NCBI GenBank assembly: GCA_013361065.1
Contig: JABWAK010000009.1
Location: forward strand, 1 to 45,536
DNA length: 45,536 bases
DNA from: Bacteroidota bacterium
GTDB lineage: Bacteria > Bacteroidota > Ignavibacteria > UBA10030 > UBA8401
Reading direction: 5' to 3'
Part shown: one piece after another, positions 1 to 20,900 of the stretch
Numbering within the stretch: position 1 is the first letter of the stretch
Layout: every line of letters begins with the position of its first letter
Made by a program: the position numbers and the translations under genes
The notes under the pieces: model-generated
Seen by the model: only the letters and a program-made list of their open reading frames with translations
Databases searched by the model: none
What the model was told of the DNA's origin: nothing

Positions 1-1
1 C

Positions 2-409
2 ACAAGCGGCGCAGCGGGCGCCGCCGATCTGCTCAGCCGCCACCCGGAGCTGACCGCGCTGATCTGCCTTAACGACCGCATGGCGCTGGGCGCGATCCAG
101 CAGGCGCGGCTGATGGGCCGCCGCGTGCCCGGCGACCTGACCGTGACGGGCTATGACGACATCCCCGCCGCCGCCAGCTTCGCGCCACCGCTGACGACGA
201 TCGATCAGCGCGCCCCGGAAAGCGGCCAGACCGCCGCGCACATGCTGTTCGACATCCTCGCAGGCGCCACACCTGACAACGCCGTGCTCCCGGTCCGGTT
301 CGTTGAAAGGGAATCCACCGCCGCGCCCTACTCCGCTCCTGACTCTGTCCCTAACCGATCGGTCGCATCGATGCTCCCTGAGCCAAGAGAGGAGGACACA
401 GCCGACTGA
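2..409 (+). CDS. LacI-family transcriptional regulator, C-terminal fragment
   Basis: Only the last ~135 residues are present; the gene runs in from before the window and is open from base 2. The segment LICLNDRMALGA and the following GDLTVTGYDD match the ligand-binding half of LacI/GalR repressors (type 1 periplasmic-binding-protein fold), where the N-D-x-x-A motif precedes the helix leading to the 'GYDD' strand. The DNA-binding domain lies outside the window. It sits 102 bp upstream of a sugar ABC transporter on the same strand, so by family precedent it probably represses that operon in response to a sugar. The C-terminal ~30 residues beyond the usual LacI end are low-complexity. Codon use resembles the next three genes and not the DNA beyond 4.6 kb. 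Confidence 0.85.
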   Translation, partial: TSGAAGAADLLSRHPELTALICLNDRMALGAIQQARLMGRRVPGDLTVTGYDDIPAAASFAPPLTTIDQRAPESGQTAAHMLFDILAGATPDNAVLPVRFVERESTAAPYSAPDSVPNRSVASMLPEPREEDTAD

Positions 410-511
410 CAACCGAGGCGCTACGTAAGGAATCCGCCGGAACCATCCGCCCGCGCGGCTGGATGGCAAGCAAACACAACAGATGCTTTCGGTCTTTTAA
501 GGAGAGGTGCC

Positions 512-1792
512 ATGTCCAGTTCCAAGTTCTCCAAGCGCAGCCTTTTCGTGACGTTGCTGATCGCCGTGGTGCTCGCGCTCCCCGCTGGTCTGACCGCCGC
601 GCAGGGGCCGGAATACGTCACCTACAACTCGATGCACGGCGACCCCAAGCCGCGCGCCTTCGACGAAGAAATGGTCGCCATGTGGAACGAGGCTCACCCG
701 CTGGTGCCGGTGGAGCACTCGATCATCGCGCACGAAGACTTCAAGCAGGCCATCCGCGCCTATCTGACCGCCGAACCGGCCCCTGACGTGCTGACCTGGT
801 TCGCTGGCGAGCGCGCCCGGTTCTTCATCGACAAGGGCCTGATCGCGGACATTTCCGATGTCTTCGCCGATTACGGCTTCAACGAGGCGTATGCGCCGGG
901 CTTCGTCGCGCTGGCCTCGGTGGATGGCAAGCAATACTTCCTGCCAACCTCGTACTACTGGTGGGCGGTCTACTATCGCCCCTCGCTGTTCGAGCAGGCC
1001 GGGATCACCAAAGTCCCGGAGACCTGGGAAGAGTTCCTGGGCGCGTGCGACACGCTCAACGCGGCGGGGATCACCCCCATCACGATCGGCACCCGCTATC
1101 CGTGGACGGCGGCTGCCTGGTTCGACTATCTCAATATGCGTATCAACGGCCCGCAGTTCCACATCGACCTGATGCTGCTCAAGGAGTCCTACACCGACGA
1201 ACGCGTCAAAGCCGTCTTCGCCAAGTGGCAGGAGCTGTTTGATCACAACTGCTTTATTGAAGACGCCGCCGCATACGCCTGGCAGGAAGCCCTGACGCCG
1301 ATGACTGAAGGCACGGCAGCGATGTACCTGATGGGCCAGTTCATCGTCGACTCGTACCCCGACGAGCTGGAAGCGGACCTCGACTTCTTCCGCTTCCCGA
1401 TCATCGACCCCAGCGTGCCAATCGGCGAGGACGCCCCAACCGACGGGTACTTCATGGCGGCGAACGCGCGCAACCTGGATGGTGGCAAGGAATTCCTGGC
1501 CTTCATCGGCTCGCTGGAGATGCAGCAGAAGGCGTTTGACGAGATGGGCCGCCTGCCCACCCGCACTGATGTCGATGTGAGCGGCGCGTCGCCCGCCACC
1601 CAGAAGGGCATCGAGCTGATCCAGACCGCAGACTATGTCGCGCAGTTCTACGATCGCGACACGACCGCCCCCATGGCCGAGGCCGGGCTGAACGGGTTCT
1701 CCCAATTCTGGAGCGATCCGTCCTCGATTGACCAGATTCTGGAAGACCTTGAGGCCGAGCGCCTGCGTATCCTGGAAGAAACGGCCGAGTAA
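512..1792 (+). CDS. ABC transporter extracellular sugar-binding protein (family 1)
   Basis: A 426-residue extracellular solute-binding protein that should capture a sugar or oligosaccharide outside the membrane and pass it to the two permeases encoded downstream. The N-terminus is a Sec signal peptide (basic KFSKRS, then a hydrophobic core to ALPAGLTAA). There is no lipobox cysteine, so it is not an obvious lipoprotein. The body has the usual family-1 features: an early DVLTWFAGE segment, an aromatic YYWWAVYY stretch, then PETWEEF, typical of carbohydrate binders. The ATG is fixed by a strong ribosome binding site (AAGGAGAGG) a few bases upstream. The substrate cannot be told from sequence; the GH2 gene further down suggests a beta-linked glycoside. 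No ATPase gene is present, which is common for these operons because a shared MsiK-type ATPase is encoded elsewhere. Confidence 0.93.
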   Translation: MSSSKFSKRSLFVTLLIAVVLALPAGLTAAQGPEYVTYNSMHGDPKPRAFDEEMVAMWNEAHPLVPVEHSIIAHEDFKQAIRAYLTAEPAPDVLTWFAGERARFFIDKGLIADISDVFADYGFNEAYAPGFVALASVDGKQYFLPTSYYWWAVYYRPSLFEQAGITKVPETWEEFLGACDTLNAAGITPITIGTRYPWTAAAWFDYLNMRINGPQFHIDLMLLKESYTDERVKAVFAKWQELFDHNCFIEDAAAYAWQEALTPMTEGTAAMYLMGQFIVDSYPDELEADLDFFRFPIIDPSVPIGEDAPTDGYFMAANARNLDGGKEFLAFIGSLEMQQKAFDEMGRLPTRTDVDVSGASPATQKGIELIQTADYVAQFYDRDTTAPMAEAGLNGFSQFWSDPSSIDQILEDLEAERLRILEETAE

Positions 1793-1808
1793 GCCCTCCC
1801 GTTCACCG

Positions 1809-1862
1809 GTCAGGCCCCCCTGACGTTTGGGCACGGTCATCCAACTCACGGGTGGCCGTGCC
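1809..1862 (+). other. Tandem hairpins between binding-protein and permease genes
   Basis: Two stem-loops lie in the 100-bp gap: GTCAGG/CCTGAC with a CCCC loop at 1809-1824, followed by GTTT, and GGCACGG/CCGTGCC at 1830-1862. In many sugar ABC operons such structures stabilise the binding-protein message or cause partial termination, so that more binding protein than permease is made. That role is inferred from position; the T-run is too short for a strong terminator. Confidence 0.45.
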
Positions 1863-1892
1863 GCTCCAAACCATCGTCACAAGGAGCGGACT

Positions 1893-3272
1893 ATGGCTAC
1901 AGCAGTGAAAGCGCGGAATTTGCGGGAGCCGCTGGATTTCGCCAACGCGAATTTTCTGGGGCTGATCTTCGCGGTCGTCGTCCTGGTCACGTTTATCTTC
2001 ATGCCCTGGATGTGGACGGAAATCAAGTATAACGGCGCGCGCCTGATGTCCGATGTGCTGACCGGGGGCAGCCTGAAGAACTTCAGCACCTGGCAGATCG
2101 TCCTGATCCCGCTCGCCGCGCTGCTGACTATGGGCTTCTCTCTATGGGGGCTGCTAACCCCGCATCGAGGCGCGCTCGCCTCCATCCTGACCATGGGGTT
2201 CGGTGTGCTGGGGCTGGTGTACTACGCTGATCTCTATTTCGTCCGCGAGGGCGAGGTGGCGGAATACATCCGCGCCAATATTGGCACCGGCTCGCAGGTG
2301 GTGTTTGTCGCGCTGGTGGGACTGGTCGCCCAGGTCATCCTGCTGGTTCCCAACCTGAACATCGCCGCGCAGCGGATCAGCCGGCGGCTCGCGGCGCTCA
2401 GGCCGCCGGTGCCGCAGAAACTGATTCCTTACCTGTTCCTGGCCGTGCCGCTGGCTCTGTACCTGGTCTGGATCATCGCGCCGACGGTCTACACGTTTTA
2501 TCTGAGTCTGACCAACTGGGACGGCGTCAGCACGCCGGAATACGTCGGCTTGCGAAATTACGAAGTCCTCTTCAAGCAAAGCGCGCTGGCTGAAGCGTTG
2601 GGCAACAACCTGCGCTGGCTGGTCGCGTTCGTCACCGTGCCGACCACCCTGGGGCTGGGGCTGGCCCTGATCTTCAATACGGACATGCGCGGCGGGCGCT
2701 GGTACAAGGTCAGCTTCTACTCGCCGCTGGTGCTGTCGTGGCCGGTGATCGCGCTGGTCTGGTCGTGGGTCTATCACCCGACCAAGGGGTTGATTAACTC
2801 GCTGCTGATCCAGGGTGGGATCACCGAGAACCCGCCTGGCTGGCTGGCGGATCGCGACCTGGCGATCTACTGCATCATCGCGGCGGCGACCTGGCGCCAG
2901 GTCGGCTACGTGATGGTGCTGTACCTGGCGGGGCTGAAAAACGTCGATCCGACTCTGATCGACGCCGGGCTGGTGGACGGCGCGAACCGCTGGCAGTTAT
3001 TCCGGCATGTGATCCTGCCGCTGCTGGCGCCGGTGACGACGATCGTCTTCATTATCTCGGTGATTGACTCGCTGCGCTCCTTCGACCTGGTGCAGGTCAT
3101 GACGCGCGGCAACCAGGGGACGCGCGTGCTGGCGAACTACATGTATATCGAGGCGTTCAACAACTACCGGATGGGCTACGGCGCCGCGATCGCGGTCGTG
3201 CTGTTCACGATCAGCATCATCTTCGTCGGTTTCTACCTGTGGCGCACCCTCAGAGACGAGCTGGAGTATTAG
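1893..3272 (+). CDS. Sugar ABC transporter permease (MalF/UgpA type) with extra N-terminal membrane domain
   Basis: A 459-residue inner-membrane permease. The C-terminal ~290 residues are a standard binding-protein-dependent permease: a PTVYTFYLSLTNWDG first helix, then NYEVLF, and the EAA loop that docks on the ATPase (DAGLVDGANRWQLFRHVILP). Before this are ~165 extra residues with four predicted membrane spans (around LIFAVVVLVTFIFMPW, IVLIPLAALLTMGF, LTMGFGVLGLVYY and VVFVALVGLVAQVILLV). Usual MalF-type permeases without this extension are ~290-320 residues long. I chose the start at MATAVKARN because AAGGAGCGG lies just upstream; a longer in-frame start at 1827 has no such site. It pairs with the next gene to form the transmembrane channel. 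Confidence 0.92.
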   Translation: MATAVKARNLREPLDFANANFLGLIFAVVVLVTFIFMPWMWTEIKYNGARLMSDVLTGGSLKNFSTWQIVLIPLAALLTMGFSLWGLLTPHRGALASILTMGFGVLGLVYYADLYFVREGEVAEYIRANIGTGSQVVFVALVGLVAQVILLVPNLNIAAQRISRRLAALRPPVPQKLIPYLFLAVPLALYLVWIIAPTVYTFYLSLTNWDGVSTPEYVGLRNYEVLFKQSALAEALGNNLRWLVAFVTVPTTLGLGLALIFNTDMRGGRWYKVSFYSPLVLSWPVIALVWSWVYHPTKGLINSLLIQGGITENPPGWLADRDLAIYCIIAAATWRQVGYVMVLYLAGLKNVDPTLIDAGLVDGANRWQLFRHVILPLLAPVTTIVFIISVIDSLRSFDLVQVMTRGNQGTRVLANYMYIEAFNNYRMGYGAAIAVVLFTISIIFVGFYLWRTLRDELEY

Positions 3273-3274
3273 CC

Positions 3275-4153
3275 ATGGCGACCCTCGCCCGCACCCAGAA
3301 CGCCAGCCAGGTCAGCGGCGTCGCGCCCGTGCGCGAGCGCTTCAACCGCGCGGCCAAGTACATCCTGCTGACGATGTTCACGCTGACATGGCTGCTGCCG
3401 CTGTTCGCCACCTTGCTGACTTCGTTCCGCACGATGGATGACATCACGCTCAACGGGTTCTGGAGCATCCCGCGCGAATTCGTGTACCAGAACTTCATCG
3501 AGGCGTGGACCGCGGCGCGCGTCCGGCAATACCTGCTTAACAGCTTCATCATCACCATCCCGTCGCTGTTGGGGATGCTGTTCCTCTCGTCGCTGAGCGC
3601 CTATGCCCTCGCCCGCTTCAAGTTCAAGGGCAACCTGCTGATCTACTTCATGTACGTCGCCGGGACCATGCTGCCATTCCAGATTCTGCTGCTACCGGTC
3701 TTCCGCCTGACCAACCGGCTTGGGCTGTACGACACCTACGGCGCGCTGATCCTGATTCACATCGCGTTCCAGCTTGGCTTCTGCACGTTCGTGATGCGTA
3801 ACTTCATGCGCACCGTGCCGGGCGAGATTCTCGACGCGGCGCGGGTCGATGGCTGCGGCGAGTTCCGTATCTACGGGCAGATTATGCTGCCGCTGAGCCT
3901 GCCCTCGCTCGCGGCGCTGGCGACGCTGGAATTCACCTGGGTCTTCAACGACTTTCTGTGGGCGCTAATTCTGCTCCAGTCGGACTCGCTGCGCCCGGTC
4001 ACGGCAGGGCTGGCGACGCTCCAGGGGCAGTACGTCACCGATTGGCCGCTGATCACCGCCGGCGCGCTGCTGGCGACCCTGCCGACGGTGTTCGTGTTTA
4101 TCTTCTTGCAGCGGTATTTTATTCAGGGGCTGACCCTCGGATCGGGCAAGTAA
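3275..4153 (+). CDS. Sugar ABC transporter permease (MalG/UgpE type)
   Basis: A 292-residue second permease of the sugar importer. It has six predicted spans, the typical opening helix ILLTMFTLTWLLPLFATLL with the SFRT element after it, and the EAA loop DAARVDGCGEFRIYGQIMLP before the last helices. The start is 2 bp after the upstream permease stop, with CTGGAG as ribosome binding site inside that gene's end; an earlier in-frame ATG at 3239 would overlap the previous gene by 34 bp. Tight spacing implies translational coupling and a 1:1 ratio with its partner. Codon use is of the 5'-end type (CGC for Arg, GGC for Gly). Confidence 0.93.
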   Translation: MATLARTQNASQVSGVAPVRERFNRAAKYILLTMFTLTWLLPLFATLLTSFRTMDDITLNGFWSIPREFVYQNFIEAWTAARVRQYLLNSFIITIPSLLGMLFLSSLSAYALARFKFKGNLLIYFMYVAGTMLPFQILLLPVFRLTNRLGLYDTYGALILIHIAFQLGFCTFVMRNFMRTVPGEILDAARVDGCGEFRIYGQIMLPLSLPSLAALATLEFTWVFNDFLWALILLQSDSLRPVTAGLATLQGQYVTDWPLITAGALLATLPTVFVFIFLQRYFIQGLTLGSGK

Positions 4154-4195
4154 TCGGTGGCGCGCTGCGCGCCTTCGCAGTGAAAGGATACTGGT

Positions 4196-5854
4196 TTGCG
4201 CACCCTCATTCCGTTCAACGACGGCTGGCTGTACCACCCTGAGCCGGTGGACGACACCGCGCCGGACAGCCGCTTCGAGCCGGTGACGCTCCCGCACGCC
4301 AACATCGTGCTGCCGCATCACAACTTCGACAACGCCGAATATCAATTTATCTCGACCTATCGCCGGCGCTTCACGCCGCCGGAGCTTGAGCCAGGGCAGC
4401 GCCTGTTTGTCGATTTCGAAGGCGCGATGATCGCCTCGACCGTCGCGTTGAACGGCGTGCGGCTGGGCGAGTATCGCGGCGGGTTCACGCCGTTCTCGTT
4501 CGAAGTGACCGGACTGCTTCGCGGGAAGCGGAACTCGCTGGTGGTGAAGGTGGACAATAAGCGGGTCAAAGAAGGGGTGCCGACTCTTAATACAGACTGG
4601 TGGAATTACGGCGGCATCACCCGGGATGTGCGGTTGGTGGAAACTCCCGCCGTGTTCATCCGCGATGCCGTTGTTCATCTCGACCGGAACGATCCGAAGC
4701 AGCTCCGCACGTCGGTGACAATGGATGGTGCGAACCGTGCCGGGCAGAAGGTCCGATTGACCATACCGGAACTGAAACTCGATGCCTCCGCTGTGACTGA
4801 CTCTTCCGGCACCGCCTTCATCACCATTCCCATCCGTTCTTCCATCAGATATTGGTCACCGGCCGATCCGAAACTGTACGATGTGACCATCACGGCGGGT
4901 GATGATACGTTCCGCGAGCGGATCGGACTGCGGACCATCACCGTAGCCGGCACTTCCATCCTGCTGAACGGTACGAAGGTGTTCCTGCGCGGCATTTCGA
5001 TCCACGAGGAGAGTCCGTTCACCAAAGGACGCGCACACACGCGGGAGGATGCGGTGACGATCCTCTCCCGCGCGAAAGAATTAGGATGTAGTTTCGTCCG
5101 CCTTGCCCACTATCCCCACAACGAACAGATGGTGCGGATGGCCGATTCGATGGGGCTGCTGGTCTGGGAGGAGATCCCGGTCTATTGGACGATCGACTGG
5201 CGGAACGAGGCGACATACCGCAACGCCGAAGCGCAGCTGGAGGCGATGATCGTGCGGGACCGTAACCGTGCATCGGTGATCATCTGGTCGATGGCGAACG
5301 AGACTCCCGTCAGCGAAGTGCGGAACGCGTTCCTCGGAAAACTGGCGGCCCGTGCGCGCGCGCTGGACGGTACGCGGCTGATCAGTGCGGCGCTGGAACA
5401 GAGCGGTCAGCCGGGCGCACCGAACACACGGAGCATCACCGACCCGTTCGCGGAGACAGTGGACATCCTCAGTTTCAATCAGTACATCGGCTGGTATGAC
5501 GGTCTGCCGGACAAGTGCCTGGACGTACAATGGAAGATCGCCCAGCAGAAACCGGTGATTATCTCCGAATTCGGCGCCGATGCAAAGTACGGATTCCATG
5601 GTGATACGCTGACGAGATTCTCCGAGGAGTATCAGGAGGACCTCTACAGAAAGACGCTCCGGATGCTCAGCACCATCCCGCAGCTGAGCGGCATGTCGCC
5701 GTGGATCCTCACCGATTTCCGCTCCCCGCGCCGGCCGCTTCCCGGCATCCAGGATGGATGGAACCGGAAAGGGCTCTACTCCGAGAACGGAGAGAAGAAG
5801 AAGGCGTTCTTTGTGCTGCAAAGGTATTACGAACAAAAGAAAGCAGGACGGTGA
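4196..5854 (+). CDS. Glycoside hydrolase family 2 (beta-glucuronidase/galactosidase-like), possibly hybrid
   Basis: 552 residues, full family length: sugar-binding jelly roll (~1-160), Ig-like sandwich (~165-255) and TIM barrel (~260-552). The acid/base Glu is E369 in WSMANE and the nucleophile is probably E458 in IISEFGA, so it should be an active retaining beta-glycosidase. The exact sugar is unclear. It starts with TTG, justified by AAAGGA 9 bp upstream. There is no signal peptide, so as written it is cytoplasmic, fitting a transporter operon. Oddity: base and codon use change within the gene around 4500-4650 (residues ~100-150), near the conserved motif WWNYGGITRDV. The N-terminal third resembles the upstream operon (CGC, GGC), the rest the downstream genome (CGG, GGA, ATC). 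Either two GH2 genes were joined in assembly or a real recombination made the hybrid. Confidence 0.9.
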   Translation: MRTLIPFNDGWLYHPEPVDDTAPDSRFEPVTLPHANIVLPHHNFDNAEYQFISTYRRRFTPPELEPGQRLFVDFEGAMIASTVALNGVRLGEYRGGFTPFSFEVTGLLRGKRNSLVVKVDNKRVKEGVPTLNTDWWNYGGITRDVRLVETPAVFIRDAVVHLDRNDPKQLRTSVTMDGANRAGQKVRLTIPELKLDASAVTDSSGTAFITIPIRSSIRYWSPADPKLYDVTITAGDDTFRERIGLRTITVAGTSILLNGTKVFLRGISIHEESPFTKGRAHTREDAVTILSRAKELGCSFVRLAHYPHNEQMVRMADSMGLLVWEEIPVYWTIDWRNEATYRNAEAQLEAMIVRDRNRASVIIWSMANETPVSEVRNAFLGKLAARARALDGTRLISAALEQSGQPGAPNTRSITDPFAETVDILSFNQYIGWYDGLPDKCLDVQWKIAQQKPVIISEFGADAKYGFHGDTLTRFSEEYQEDLYRKTLRMLSTIPQLSGMSPWILTDFRSPRRPLPGIQDGWNRKGLYSENGEKKKAFFVLQRYYEQKKAGR

Positions 5855-5869
5855 CAGGATGGAGAGATA

Positions 5870-5904
5870 GGTGACTGTCACCTAATACTTAGGTGACAGT
5901 CACC
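5870..5904. repeat. Double palindrome, GGTGAC/GTCACC type
   Basis: A perfect inverted repeat with 16-bp arms and a 3-bp centre between the GH2 and GH20 genes. Each arm itself contains a 13-bp palindrome (GGTGACTGTCACC, then GGTGACAGTCACC) separated by 9 bp. It can form one long hairpin or two short ones. It is not followed by a T-run, so a simple terminator is unlikely. The form resembles REP-type extragenic palindromes. Confidence 0.75.
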
Positions 5905-5944: not shown

Positions 5945-7828
5945 ATGAGAACACGAACCCTCCTTCTCCTTCTTTCCCTCACCATTCTCAGTGCGGCGGC
6001 ATTCGCCCAGCAGCTCATCCCGATCCCGGCAGAGATGCAGATGCAGAACGGCTCTTACCGCATCACGGCGGCATCCGTTGTTTCGTACAACGCACCTGCA
6101 GCGCAGGCGGCCGCGAAGGAATTCTCGGACCGCCTGAGTATCCCGGCGGGATTCACGCTGCCGGTCCAATCCGGCAGCGGCGGACCGGTCCGCTTCATCC
6201 TGCTGGAAAAGAAGGAGAAAAGGATCGGCAATGAAGGTTACCTGCTCACCGTCTCGTCGGACGGGATCACCCTCTCCGCCTACGCGCCGGCCGGTCTGTA
6301 TTATGGAGTACAGACGCTGCTGCAGCTGCTGCCGGCAGAAGTTGAGGGGAACACGCCGGCAACGGCAGAATGGAGTGTCCCTGCCGTCACCATCGTTGAC
6401 AAACCGCGGTTCGGCTGGCGCGGACTGATGCTCGACGTGAGCCGTCATTTCTTCCCGGTGGAGGATGTGAAGACGTTCATCCGCCAGATGGCGCGCTACA
6501 AATACAACACCTTCCACTGGCATCTGACGGACGATAACGGATGGCGGATCGAAGTGAAGGCGTATCCGAGACTCACCTCTGTCGGCGCGTGGCGCGTGGA
6601 GCGTTCCGGTGCGTTCGGATCACGTCTTGACCCGCAGCCCGGAGAAGCGGCGACCTACGGCGGATTCTACACGCAGGAGCAGATCAAAGAGATCGTGCAG
6701 TATGCGGCACAGCATCACATCACCGTGGTGCCGGAGATCGACCTGCCGGGACACAGCATGGCGGCGATCGCGGCCTATCCTTGGCTCAGCACGAAGAAGG
6801 ATACGAACACGCGGGTGAATCCCGGGAGTGATTTCGCCGACTGGTTCGCCAACGGCACCTTCAAAATGAACATCGAGAACACGCTCAATCCGAGCGATGA
6901 GCGGGTGTACGAGTTCCTGGAGAAGGTCTTCGCCGAGGTCGTCCCGCTCTTCCCCGGTCCGTACTTCCACGTGGGCGGGGATGAAGCATACAAAGGATAC
7001 TGGGCGCAGGATCCCGGCTGTCAGGCACTGATGAAGAAACTGAATATCCGTCACGTGGAGGACCTGCAGGGATATTTCATCACCCGGCTGGAGACGATGC
7101 TGAAGAAGCACGGCAAGAAACTGCTCGGGTGGGATGAGATCCTGGAAGGGGGCGTCTCGCCGACAGCAGCGGTGATGAGCTGGCGCGGCATGAAAGGCGG
7201 GATCGAAGCGGCGGAGAAGGGACACGAGGTGGTGATGTCCCCCACCACGTTCGCGTACCTCGATTACAATCAGGGGGACCAGACGGTCGATCCGCCGGTG
7301 TACGCATCGCTCCGCGCGAAGAAGACCTACAGTTTCGATCCGCTGCCGGAAGGCGTGGAGGCGAAGTACATTCTGGGCGGACAGGGGAATCTCTGGACCG
7401 AGAACATCCCGCACATGCGTGCGGTGCAGTACATGCTCTATCCCCGCGCGTGGGCGCTCGCCGAAGTGTTGTGGTCCCCGAAGGAACGGAAGGAGTGGAA
7501 TGGATTCACCGTGAGAATGGAAGAGCATTTTCGCCGTGCCGATAAGGCGGGGATCAATTACAGCACGGCGGTCTTCGATCCCGTGATCCGCACCCGCACG
7601 AACAACGGCGTGATGACAGTGGAGATGGAATCCGAAATGCCGGGAGTGGATATCTATTACACCATCGATGAGACGATGCCGGACGAGGGCTCGCCGAGAT
7701 ATTCCTCGCCGTTCACACTGCCGCCCGGACCGGTCACGCTCCGCGCAGTCTCCTACCGGAACGGCGTCCGGGCCGGGAATCTGATCATCCTGAAACCGGA
7801 AGAACTGCAGAAGCGGGCAGGGAGATAG
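5945..7828 (+). CDS. Beta-N-acetylhexosaminidase, GH20, exported
   Basis: 627 residues. A clear Sec signal peptide (MRTRTLLLLLSLTILSAAA, cut after AFA) sends it to the periplasm or surface. The GH20b-like N-terminal domain (~24-150) is followed by the GH20 barrel starting at FGWRGLMLDVSRHF. YNTFHWHLTDDNGWRIE and the catalytic pair D346-E347 in HVGGDEAYKGYW are intact; the Asp positions the substrate acetamido group and the Glu is the general acid. The last ~80 residues (MPGVDIYYTIDETMPDEG onward) match the chitobiase C-terminal Ig-like domain. It should release terminal GlcNAc/GalNAc from chito-oligosaccharides or glycoconjugates. No Shine-Dalgarno is visible; the leader is A/T-rich, as is common in Bacteroidota. 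With the GH2 gene it forms a small glycan-degrading pair. Confidence 0.95.
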   Translation: MRTRTLLLLLSLTILSAAAFAQQLIPIPAEMQMQNGSYRITAASVVSYNAPAAQAAAKEFSDRLSIPAGFTLPVQSGSGGPVRFILLEKKEKRIGNEGYLLTVSSDGITLSAYAPAGLYYGVQTLLQLLPAEVEGNTPATAEWSVPAVTIVDKPRFGWRGLMLDVSRHFFPVEDVKTFIRQMARYKYNTFHWHLTDDNGWRIEVKAYPRLTSVGAWRVERSGAFGSRLDPQPGEAATYGGFYTQEQIKEIVQYAAQHHITVVPEIDLPGHSMAAIAAYPWLSTKKDTNTRVNPGSDFADWFANGTFKMNIENTLNPSDERVYEFLEKVFAEVVPLFPGPYFHVGGDEAYKGYWAQDPGCQALMKKLNIRHVEDLQGYFITRLETMLKKHGKKLLGWDEILEGGVSPTAAVMSWRGMKGGIEAAEKGHEVVMSPTTFAYLDYNQGDQTVDPPVYASLRAKKTYSFDPLPEGVEAKYILGGQGNLWTENIPHMRAVQYMLYPRAWALAEVLWSPKERKEWNGFTVRMEEHFRRADKAGINYSTAVFDPVIRTRTNNGVMTVEMESEMPGVDIYYTIDETMPDEGSPRYSSPFTLPPGPVTLRAVSYRNGVRAGNLIILKPEELQKRAGR

Positions 7829-7877: not shown

Positions 7878-7903
7878 CGGCACAATGCTTGCTGCCGATG
7901 CGG

Positions 7904-10486
7904 TCATTCCTCGTTGAACAGATCCGCGATCTCCGCATCCGACAGGAATGAACGGAACAGATGGATATCATCGATGGTGCCGCTCATGAACTGGAACGGT
8001 TCACCTCCCCGCTTCGCTCTTCCCACGACCAACTGATTGGCAGCAAGATTGATATTCGGAAGATCCAGTGACTGGTCCAATCGTTTCGTCCCGTTCAGAT
8101 AGAGCACCGCCTGATAGGTGCCGAGCGGGCTCCGGCGGAATCCTACCGTGATCATGACCCACTTGCCAAGCAGATCGTTCTCGTGCACCGGATCGTACGA
8201 CACCGCGGTGCCGTTGGTATTATTGGCCGTCACCTTCAGAGAGATCTTTCCCGCCTCATTGTCCGCAGCAACGGACCAGCCCGAAGTTCCCGCACTGTTC
8301 GACCAGGCGACGAGCGGCGTCAGCTTGGACAGCGTTGGTTCCAATTTCGTCCAGAACGAGATCATCACCGCTCCTGCCGCACCAGCCGAATCACCGATCG
8401 CCGTCGTCATCATATATTGTGCTCCGGACAGCTGCCGGGCATGGTCGCTGATGCCGAACCGGTTCGACGCCGGAACCGTGCCATAATTCTGCAGTTGTCC
8501 GGCGCTGCCCCAGTAACTTTTATTCCATTCCTGCCATGTGGTGACCAATGGATAGAAGGCGGTCTGTGCGGCGGTGTATTTCCCATAGAACATGTACACA
8601 CTCAGTTCATACGATAGCGGAAATGTCAGACCGTCGACGCGATAGTTGATGTATTTTGAATGTGACAGATCGATGCCGTACGTTCCCGCCATAACATTCG
8701 GGATGGTGAACACTCCGTCCGAACCGGTGGAGACGATCGATGTTGCCGGAAGTGTCGTCACGGTTGTCCCGGCGACCCCTTTCATGGAAACGATGGAAAC
8801 AGCCTTCCCGCCAATCGTGATCGTACCTGGGCCGCCTGATGATGAGATGCTGATCTCACCGATCCAGACGGAATCGCCGTACCGGCTCACACTCGCCGAT
8901 GCGGAGGTTGCGGTGAATCCCTGTTTCGTCACTTTCAGCTGATGCTGTCCTGCCGGGATATTGCCTTTAAGAATGAAGAGTCCGGCAGCATTGGTCACGG
9001 ATGACAGTGCCGGGTCAGGCAATTCAACCAGCACTCCGGGCTCCGGCAGTTTGAGTGCATTCAGGACCTTACCGGCGATGACTGTTGTCATGACATTCGG
9101 CTGCAGCATGAACTCGACCGACGTCGTCTGCGACCCTATCACATCGGTTTCCAGGGTTTTGGAAGCGTACCCGCCGCCGGGGACCGAGGCGGTGAGTGAA
9201 TGTTTACCAACCGGGACATTGTCAGCTGTGAATTCGCCATTCGAATTGGTTGTCACACTCCGATCGCCATCGGTTGTGAACACAACGGTTGCCGCGGCGA
9301 TCGGTCCTTTGGTCAACGCATTCAAGACCTTTCCCTGTACCGAGCCGGTCTTTGCGGGCGCCAGTTGTGGTGTGATGGTCACCGAGATCTGCTGAGATGC
9401 AGAGACCGTGACCGACTGCTCCGTTGTGATCAGTGCCGTATGCTCGCACCGGAGCGTGTAGGCGCCGAATGGAACGGCGGTGAAGTATGCGGTCCCGGTT
9501 GTGTCGGTCGTCTGGACAATATTGCCGGGTATTAGTGTTAGCGTAGCATACGGGAACGGAATCTGCACTCCCTGATAGATCGCCAGCACGGTCACTTTTA
9601 CGCTGCCGATCCCTGTGCCGGACGGTGCCATGGTAAAATTCACTGTTTGCGTGCTGTTTGCAGAAAGAACCACCGGTGTCGAGGCAGCCTGATTGTATCC
9701 GATCTTTGAGACCTCGATGGTATAGGTCCCCGCAAGCACGTTGGAGAGCTGGAAGTTCCCGTTCACATCACTGTTCACGGATGTTGTTGCCGGCTTCGTG
9801 ATGACTGTTGCGTCGGCGATCGGTGTTCCGGATACAGAATGAGTAATGGTTCCTTTGATGGTACCAGTCTGTGAGGTTTGCAGTGGAACGAGTGCAATGG
9901 AGGCAGGGGCCGTCTGACCGGCAGCGACCTGAACAGCAGCAGAGCCTTGCTGATATCCTGCTGCGGCAACACGTACTGAATATGATCGAACGGGAATCTG
10001 CGGGATAGAGAACCGTCCCAAGGTGTCGGTCGTAACCGTGACAGTCACCGGTTCGGTCGTAACCGTCGCGCCGGCAACAGGGCGTGCATCAACACTGTTC
10101 GTCACCGCTCCTTGAATCGATCCGGTCGGCAAAGCGACAGGAGCGAGCACTACTTGGATTACGGTGCTCTTTTCCGCTACGACGTTGATATCCATGGATT
10201 TGGACAGATACTCATTTCTGGAGAACCGGATCACATAGTCCCCCTTATCGATCTCTTCCAGCAGGAACACACCGTTCGAATCGGTCTCTGCGGTGTTCGT
10301 TGGAGGTAGTGTTGAAATGGAAACGCCGGCAAGACCGATGTTCGAGATACTATCCCGGACCATACCGGAGATCTTTCCCGGTTTTGTTGCACCGGTGAGC
10401 TCATCAAGTTTCTCACAGGAATATATGGTGAGTGAAATGATAACGGCCGTTACGAACATACAGAACGTCACAAGAGATCGTTTCAT
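7904..10486 (-). CDS. Surface lipoprotein with seven carboxypeptidase-regulatory-like domains and a LamG-like domain
   Basis: 860 residues. The start MKRSLVTF is preceded by AAGGGG. The signal peptide ends in the lipobox IYSC with Cys24, so it is lipid-anchored. Seven tandem ~80-residue beta-sandwich units follow (~35-650). Each opens with G-x-I/V-x-G-x-V, has TDSNGVF or SDVNGNF in the middle and ends G-x-Y-x-I/L-x-V-x-K-x-G-Y, the pattern of the CarboxypepD_reg/CarbopepD_reg_2 fold. The last ~210 residues resemble a LamG/concanavalin-type domain (TIDDIHLFRSFLSDAEIADLF), often carbohydrate-binding. No catalytic residues are visible, so a stalk with an adhesive or glycan-binding tip is likely. 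It has no sorting domain, consistent with lipid anchoring. The 288 bp upstream hold its promoter; I see no clear motif there. Confidence 0.85.
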   Translation of the reverse strand: MKRSLVTFCMFVTAVIISLTIYSCEKLDELTGATKPGKISGMVRDSISNIGLAGVSISTLPPTNTAETDSNGVFLLEEIDKGDYVIRFSRNEYLSKSMDINVVAEKSTVIQVVLAPVALPTGSIQGAVTNSVDARPVAGATVTTEPVTVTVTTDTLGRFSIPQIPVRSYSVRVAAAGYQQGSAAVQVAAGQTAPASIALVPLQTSQTGTIKGTITHSVSGTPIADATVITKPATTSVNSDVNGNFQLSNVLAGTYTIEVSKIGYNQAASTPVVLSANSTQTVNFTMAPSGTGIGSVKVTVLAIYQGVQIPFPYATLTLIPGNIVQTTDTTGTAYFTAVPFGAYTLRCEHTALITTEQSVTVSASQQISVTITPQLAPAKTGSVQGKVLNALTKGPIAAATVVFTTDGDRSVTTNSNGEFTADNVPVGKHSLTASVPGGGYASKTLETDVIGSQTTSVEFMLQPNVMTTVIAGKVLNALKLPEPGVLVELPDPALSSVTNAAGLFILKGNIPAGQHQLKVTKQGFTATSASASVSRYGDSVWIGEISISSSGGPGTITIGGKAVSIVSMKGVAGTTVTTLPATSIVSTGSDGVFTIPNVMAGTYGIDLSHSKYINYRVDGLTFPLSYELSVYMFYGKYTAAQTAFYPLVTTWQEWNKSYWGSAGQLQNYGTVPASNRFGISDHARQLSGAQYMMTTAIGDSAGAAGAVMISFWTKLEPTLSKLTPLVAWSNSAGTSGWSVAADNEAGKISLKVTANNTNGTAVSYDPVHENDLLGKWVMITVGFRRSPLGTYQAVLYLNGTKRLDQSLDLPNINLAANQLVVGRAKRGGEPFQFMSGTIDDIHLFRSFLSDAEIADLFNEE

Positions 10487-10774
10487 GATGTTACCCCTTT
10501 GGGAAACTGAATGGCGGAATGGAAGCGAATACAAGAAGAGGATACTCCAATAGAGTGTATACAATTGGTGTACCTGGATTTCAAAGATTATTCGCCGATT
10601 CTATTTCAAACCGCAGGGGACATTTCGCAGAAGTGATAGTATCTTCTTCGGGGTGTTTAATATTTCAGCAGTTGTGCGGCATGCAGGTCAGGATATTGTA
10701 CTATCGCGAGAGCGAAAGGAGAGAACTGGTGCGGGATGTTTTCGGTGTGTCGGGCTATTTGTTTTTCTTGCGGG

Positions 10775-18747: not shown

Positions 18748-19971
18748 CTATTTGATGAACTGCATGGCGGTGAATTCCGAATGGCCGCCGGCGGTGAGCC
18801 GTACGATGAACAGTCCGCTGCTCAGTCCCGCGGCGTTGAACGGGACCGCATGGCCGCCCGCATCCTCTCTCCCCCGCACCAGTGTGGCCGCTTCACGGCC
18901 CAGCAGGTCGTAGACGGAGAGCGTCACCTCCGCCGCTTCCGGCAGACGGTACGAGATGGTGGTGGACGGGTTGAACGGATTAGGATGATTGCGGAGCAGG
19001 AACAGGTCCTTCGGAATGGTGCGCGCAGCAAGAACGCCGGTGTAGGCGGAGGAATCCTGCAGAAACGAGTCGATGCCGCGCAGGATCGCACGGGCCGTCC
19101 GGTCGAACATCGTTGCCGCGGCACAGTTGCCGTCCTCGTACGTCATCGCCATGATCTTCTCTTTGTGATTGGACCAGCACCAGCTCTCCGGGTACTGCGT
19201 GGCCGGTGCGTTCACCCAGCTGGTGTAGTACGGGTAGGGACGGATACTGTCCGGGAAGAACGAGCGCACATAATTGATGAACCGCTGCTCCATCTGCGCG
19301 AAGAGCGGCGAGGTGCCGCCCGGGGCATGATAGACGAAGTACCGCGTGCACGCGTACGCCGAATGCATGTTCAGCATGATCCGCATCGGATTCGGCTTCG
19401 CCATCTGCGCGATGAACTGCGAGCGGAGCACCAGCACCTCCTTCTGCGGCGATGCGGAGTTCCAGTTGCTCTCGATGTCGATGTTGTTCGCATTCTGGCG
19501 TGCCAGTCCGAGCTCCACCCCGTCCGGATTGTACATCGGCATGATGACGAACACGTACCGGCGGCGGAGCTGGGCGGCCGTGTCGTTCGCCCCCAGCAGC
19601 TGCGCGATCATCTCGTTCGTCACCCAGGTCCCCTGCACCTCGTTCGGATGCGTCCGGGCATGCACCCACACACGCTGCCGCTTGTTGTCCGGGTCGGCCG
19701 ATGTATCCTGGATTGTCAGCACCCACAGGGCGCGTCCCTGCACCGAAGCACCGACGGAATCGACGGTGACGAACGGACTCTTCTTCCACTGCGACAGGTC
19801 GTAGAGCAGCGTGTCGTACCCGTATCCCCAGTTGCCGGAAGCAGCGAGTTTCGACGCTTCGGAGAGCGTATCCAGCGGACCGCATTTATCCTCTTCCATG
19901 TACAGTGTCTGCGCCGCGACAGTTGCGGCAGCGGTGAACAGGAGCAGAAGGAGGGAACGAAGACGGCTCAT
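18748..19971 (-). CDS. Exported M14-family zinc carboxypeptidase with type IX sorting domain
   Basis: 407 residues. Signal peptide MSRLRSLLLLLFTAAATVAA. The M14 zinc site is visible as H-P-N-E (VHARTHPNEVQG) plus a later His (LNMHSAYA). A candidate catalytic Glu lies in AMTYEDGNC. The last ~85 residues form a C-terminal sorting domain: LRNHPNPFNPSTTISYRLPE, then VYDLLGREAATLV, then SGLFIVRLTAG and a terminal K. Such domains direct proteins through the type IX system across the outer membrane and are removed or anchored there. It should trim peptides at the cell surface or outside. Its ATG overlaps the preceding gene's stop as ATGA. Confidence 0.9.
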   Translation of the reverse strand: MSRLRSLLLLLFTAAATVAAQTLYMEEDKCGPLDTLSEASKLAASGNWGYGYDTLLYDLSQWKKSPFVTVDSVGASVQGRALWVLTIQDTSADPDNKRQRVWVHARTHPNEVQGTWVTNEMIAQLLGANDTAAQLRRRYVFVIMPMYNPDGVELGLARQNANNIDIESNWNSASPQKEVLVLRSQFIAQMAKPNPMRIMLNMHSAYACTRYFVYHAPGGTSPLFAQMEQRFINYVRSFFPDSIRPYPYYTSWVNAPATQYPESWCWSNHKEKIMAMTYEDGNCAAATMFDRTARAILRGIDSFLQDSSAYTGVLAARTIPKDLFLLRNHPNPFNPSTTISYRLPEAAEVTLSVYDLLGREAATLVRGREDAGGHAVPFNAAGLSSGLFIVRLTAGGHSEFTAMQFIK

Positions 19972-20900
19972 TTGATCAGCACCATGCGTTTGGATTCGGT
20001 GAATGATCCCGCCCGCAAACGGTAGACATACACGCCGCTCGGCAGGGACGATGCCGTGAATGTGGAGCTGTACCGTCCGGCATCCAGACGTTCATCCACC
20101 AGTGTAGCGACGCGGGACCCGAGCATGTCGTAGACATCCAGCACGACATGGGCGGAGGTTGGGACGGTGAAGGCGATGGCAGTGGAAGGGTTGAACGGAT
20201 TCGGATAGTTCTGCGTCAGTGTGAATCGGTCCGCAATACCGGTCTGCCGCTCCACAGAGAGGAGTCCCTTCTTATAGAGCAGCGCGATCCACAGGTCCGC
20301 ATCCAGCAGCCAGGAGAAATCACTCGGTTCGGCGAACCGCTGATAGGTGTATCCCACACCGGTCAGCCGTTCCCACGCGCGGAAAGCCTTCTCCCCCTGC
20401 CCTGCTGAATCGCAGAAGAGCGAGAAGGTATCGTTCGCGGTCGCCGACCATTCGATGCCGACGAACACCGATTCCGGTGTGAACGCTCCGCCCGGAACAT
20501 TGAACGGCACCGGCAACTGGAAGACCGTCCCGGCGCCGGTGGTATCGAAAGCATCGAGCGTCGTGCGGATGGAAGCGACGGTCGCACCGGGACCGCCGGT
20601 CGAGGAGTCATAGTTCTGCGGGCCGGTGGCGGTGCGGGTGAAGACGATGGTGATGCTGTCCGCTGACCCCACGATCTGCTTCTTCCCCATCCAGATCCTT
20701 GTGCCGACCACATGCACCTCTTCCAGCAGATCGAACCGCTGATATTTGCCGATGTCGATGTACCCGTTCGTCCCGGCGATGTAGCCCCACCCGTACGGAT
20801 TGCGGTGGACGCGTTTCGTGTCGCCGTAGAACAGCGTATCAACGGTCTGCGCTGTGAGGAACGATGCAGCAAAGAAGGAGAGGAGGAGGATTCTTTTCAT
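19968..20900 (-). CDS. Exported protein of unknown function with type IX sorting domain
   Basis: 310 residues with signal peptide MKRILLLSFFAASFLTA. The middle region (~20-215) looks beta-rich and matches no family I can name; it contains DLLEEVHVVGTRIWMGKK and VFVGIEWSATANDTFSLF, reminiscent of uncharacterised surface beta-sandwiches. The last ~85 residues are a sorting domain: LTQNYPNPFNPSTAIAFTVP, VYDMLGSRVATLV and SGVYVYRLRAG, ending in LIK. First gene of the minus-strand unit (this gene, M14 peptidase, dCMP deaminase). The promoter should lie in the 163 bp before the divergent gene at 21064; I see no clear -10 there. Confidence 0.82.
   Translation of the reverse strand: MKRILLLSFFAASFLTAQTVDTLFYGDTKRVHRNPYGWGYIAGTNGYIDIGKYQRFDLLEEVHVVGTRIWMGKKQIVGSADSITIVFTRTATGPQNYDSSTGGPGATVASIRTTLDAFDTTGAGTVFQLPVPFNVPGGAFTPESVFVGIEWSATANDTFSLFCDSAGQGEKAFRAWERLTGVGYTYQRFAEPSDFSWLLDADLWIALLYKKGLLSVERQTGIADRFTLTQNYPNPFNPSTAIAFTVPTSAHVVLDVYDMLGSRVATLVDERLDAGRYSSTFTASSLPSGVYVYRLRAGSFTESKRMVLIK

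Follow-up and report, generated by a model that had tools for sequence, protein, structure and literature searches.

A hybrid GH2 reading frame at a contig end of a Bacteroidota draft genome is very probably an inter-phylum assembly chimera

The window, the whole stretch of 45,536 nucleotides analysed here, is contig C223 of the draft genome bin G000 and starts at the first base of the contig. The analysis indicates that C223 is very probably an inter-phylum assembly chimera at the contig end, with the join inside a GH2 reading frame. As the earlier note had observed, this frame (4196-5854, 552 aa) stays open across the change of organism, and its three Pfam domains, PF02837, PF00703 and PF02836 (N-terminal, middle and TIM-barrel domains), are drawn from two genes. 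The features on both sides of the join are listed in Table 1.

Table 1. Features at the left end of contig C223, with the evidence for each and its assigned origin
Feature	Position	Strand	Evidence and origin
LacI-type regulator, C-terminal part, cut by the contig start	2-409	+	Pfam Peripla_BP_3; inside the 82% L035 alignment; Chloroflexota DNA
Sugar ABC transporter substrate-binding protein	512-1792	+	SBP_bac_1; 82% DNA identity to L035; Chloroflexota DNA
ABC permease 1, likely start ATG 1893	1827-3272	+	BPD_transp_1; Chloroflexota DNA
ABC permease 2	3239-4153	+	BPD_transp_1; inside the L035 alignment; Chloroflexota DNA
Chloroflexota GH2 5' part, residues 1-96, without signal peptide	4196-4483	+	L035 identity; tree
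Join TTCACGCCGTTCTCGTTCGA	4484-4503	+	Same 20 letters in L035, L036 and G006; breakpoint best placed at 4481-4505
The bin's own GH2, 3' part (catalytic TIM barrel)	4504-5854	+	G006 identity; tree
Intergenic palindrome pair GGTGACTGTCACC/GGTGACAGTCACC, native	5870-5904	+	Dispersed in the bin genome
GH20 beta-hexosaminidase-like gene, native GH2 neighbour	5945-7828	+	Pfam; order kept in relatives

Among the bacterial and archaeal genomes scanned with permease 1, the best matches were Chloroflexota MAGs. Two loci from Anaerolineae-type Chloroflexota MAGs, L035 (DYGX01000007.1) and L036 (DYEN01000371.1), match permease 1 with 83% identity across the whole protein, and their DNA aligns to the window without a break from base 4 or 5 to 4511 (82% and 81% identity, respectively), with gene order shared; past 4511 the window gave no alignment to either locus. 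The operon at L035 reads LacI, binding protein, two permeases, GH2, the order that the earlier note had assigned to the window and that Pfam confirms there; positions 1-4503 resemble the L035/L036 operon in gene order and at 82% DNA identity. The Chloroflexota GH2 of L035 is 731 aa long, in contrast to the 552-aa hybrid, and its last ~630 residues are unrelated to the window GH2 at the DNA level, with 27% protein identity. The exact Chloroflexota parent was not found among 200 genomes related to that of L035, the best of which reached 82%. Judged from these matches, the source of the first 4.5 kb is a Chloroflexota bacterium, Anaerolineae- or Thermoflexus-like.

Comparing the two parts of the GH2 separately, as the earlier note had proposed, assigned them to two different phyla, by identity and by trees. 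Residues 1-96 share 83% identity with the enzyme of L035 and 27-33% with close native GH2 relatives, and the tree of the first part places it in a clade with L035 and L036 (support 100/98). For residues 104-552 the values are 88% against G006, which among the same-genus relatives is closest to the bin, and 27% against L035; in the tree the second part is sister to G006 (support 98/100). The missing signal peptide reported for this GH2 is real and can be accounted for. The native orthologues (609-614 aa) have a signal-peptide-like start; the window GH2 lacks it because its N-terminus belongs to a Chloroflexota enzyme, and relatives of that enzyme also start without a signal peptide.

A three-way comparison placed the best breakpoint at 4481-4505, inside the GH2 frame. 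At 4484-4503 the 20-mer TTCACGCCGTTCTCGTTCGA is common to the window, L035, L036 and G006, the parents being represented here by relatives. It is the longest exact match between a 21-kb L035 locus and a 20-kb G006 locus, and the only one of at least 15 bp. In both GH2 proteins TTCACGCCGTTCTCGTTCGA is read in the same register, as FTPFSF of the N-terminal (sugar-binding) domain; the frame stays open across the join because the two genes are homologous and in register at this point. No second exact copy of TTCACGCCGTTCTCGTTCGA was found in the bin beyond the join, and a site with 2 mismatches lies in an unrelated GH2 on contig C58. The earlier note had located the change near the motif WWNYGGITRDV and suggested joining at a conserved stretch. 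A stretch conserved between both GH2 genes is indeed present at the join, but it is not the one named: the motif (~4598-4630) lies wholly in the native half, ~100 bp downstream of the break. A breakpoint at the motif was rejected, as identity to G006 already starts at 4477-4484.

From 4477 through GH2 and GH20, the G006 sequence aligns to the window at 85-87% DNA identity, and nothing of it aligns before 4477. The GH2 of G006 is intact with GH20 next, an order that is kept on contigs of G005 and G007 as well. The exported GH2 of the genus (G006:C104, G005:C57, G007:C149), followed by GH20, corresponds to window positions 4484-5854 and the GH20 gene, but it is ~610 aa long (609-614) with a signal-peptide-like start, unlike the 552-aa frame. 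The remainder of C223 is native as far as tested (up to 33 kb), with many blocks matched in members of the genus; for G005, most of these blocks follow one another in order on contig C57. Proteins downstream of GH20 carry a type IX sorting domain detected by Pfam, in agreement with the type IX secretion proteins described there before. We also observed that GH20 is followed on the minus strand (7904-10564) by a gene for a protein of 886 aa that combines six carboxypeptidase-regulatory-like repeats with a laminin-G-like domain, and that the G006 locus is without this stretch at the corresponding place. Farther downstream, a short DNA segment (20183-20231) is matched at many sites in related genomes at 80-100%; it resembles a conserved coding motif rather than a mobile repeat, because the ORF that contains it (19968-20900, minus) carries the type IX sorting motif QNYPNPFNPST. 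A sorting motif of this type suggests that the organism of the bin is Ignavibacteria-like.

Composition changes at the same place. The tetranucleotide Markov log-likelihood ratio was +25 to +80 in 9/9 windows of 500 bp before 4500 and -1.6 to -81 after it, negative in every window to the contig end, and under this model the GH2 5' part outscored all 271 native 288-bp pieces; the sign thus flips at 4500. The change in codon use noticed before is borne out by the counts: arginine codons CGC and CGG number 43 vs 15 before the break and 58 vs 59 after it, and GGA accounts for 3/88 glycine codons before and 91/330 after. An intergenic inverted repeat built on GGTGACNGTCACC occurs at 58 sites in G000 (control 0), on contigs C11 (4 sites), C131, C185, C227 and others, with 2 exact sites in the window; the palindromes are absent from 1-4483. 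These repeats are often paired ~20-40 bp apart and are clustered on C131 and C185, and they are possibly REP-like elements.

The native neighbourhood expected to the left of the GH2 lies on another contig of the bin. The genes upstream of GH2-GH20 in G006 and G005 match contig C11 in the same orientation, and C11 (8,006 bp) can be aligned both with the stretch immediately before GH2 in G006 and with its counterpart on a 221-kb contig of G005. C11 ends at 8006 with ATGACCATCCGCGCGATTCTTTCGTTCCTTCTGCTCCCCCTGTT, coding for MTIRAILSFLLLPL, which is 14 codons into a signal-peptide-like start in the correct orientation for GH2. These last 44 bp are likely, but not certainly, the start of the native GH2 gene, given that in G006 and G005 a further gene lies between this region and GH2. 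If the end of C11 is the GH2 start, the gap between C11 and the join is ~0.4 kb, estimated from the G006 gene, whose start codon is at about 7415 and whose 20-mer is at 7883. The missing ~0.4 kb GH2 stretch was not found in the bin; a piece of this length would be shorter than the minimum usually set for contigs in binning. The gene directly upstream of the orthologous GH2 encodes 191 aa at L032 (G006:C104, 6837-7412) and 927 aa at L034 (G005:C57, 8601-11384), and this spot therefore varies within the genus. A search of the bin for the 191-aa gene found only a 40% relative, indicating that this gene is not on the C11 side of the locus in the bin.

An assembly origin would account for the arrangement as follows. 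Two members of the community, the Chloroflexota bacterium and the organism of the bin, would each possess a GH2 gene, with an identical run of at least 20 bp, coding for FTPFSF, common to both genes. At this stretch the assembler, or an artefact of library preparation, would walk from the Chloroflexota GH2 into the native one, and the homologous, in-register join would yield a false 552-aa hybrid with an open frame. The native GH2 would most likely begin, signal peptide included, at the right end of C11, with ~0.4 kb missing. Assemblers are known to make chimeras of two organisms, with phylogenetic profiles that differ on either side (PMC7111523). False joins between similar genomes also occurred in a mock community, where all of them sat at contig ends (PMC8172020). 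C223 likewise combines two organisms with differing profiles and has the foreign piece at a contig end, but in contrast to those inter-species contigs (PMC7111523; PMC8172020) it joins different phyla over ~20 bp and leaves a fused frame open. An identity of 20 bp is short for joining by an assembler and counts against a chimera, although the shared stretch may be longer in the true parents than in their relatives.

The same arrangement could have arisen by a real inter-phylum transfer, with Chloroflexota sugar-transporter DNA recombined into the native GH2 at the shared 20-mer. Nothing in the sequence alone forbids such an event: the frame is open, the register is homologous, and 20 bp is near the lower limit for homologous recombination, which can be counted in its favour. 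We consider it extremely improbable, however. The foreign substrate-binding protein has no close homologue among 100 relatives of the bin, which include 7 of the genus (best 28% identity); 1-4483 contains no mobile genes and is wholly Chloroflexota-like in composition, without amelioration; the foreign segment runs off the contig end; and the native upstream region sits, in the right orientation, on C11, which dead-ends. As the foreign segment reaches the first base of the contig, one flank of it is visible, and this flank is native. Equally hard to credit is the extension of the transfer reading, in which loss of the signal peptide turned the hybrid GH2 into a cytosolic partner for the newly acquired Chloroflexota sugar importer; a transfer would imply a cytosolic hybrid GH2 in a lineage whose glycosidases are otherwise exported.

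We infer that the joining agent was assembly or library preparation and not cellular recombination, and the joining is almost certainly an artefact of one or the other. Within this artefactual origin, a library chimera formed before assembly by PCR or whole-genome amplification, with few reads truly spanning the join, is a very unlikely sub-case. Template switching, too, typically leaves its junctions in short identical stretches, which speaks for this sub-case, but rare chimeric molecules alone do not normally suffice to give a consensus contig, and no positive evidence for a library origin was obtained. The earlier note had rated a chimera somewhat more likely than recombination; the two phyla, the join at a conserved stretch and the native neighbourhood on C11 make a chimera far more likely than that.

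If C223 is a chimera, the hybrid enzyme is artefactual and corresponds to no real gene. The case is a clean one of data quality: a bin of 3.81 Mb in 288 contigs, 97.6% complete and 1.75% contaminated, still holds 4.5 kb of another phylum, and the open fused frame would pass annotation. C223 should be cut at 4484-4503 and 1-4483 dropped from the bin, with C11 taken as the left neighbour of 4504 onward. The finding carries no biological importance: the hybrid GH2 is not a biological novelty, and neither this glycosidase nor the 'foreign transporter' should be treated as genes of this organism.
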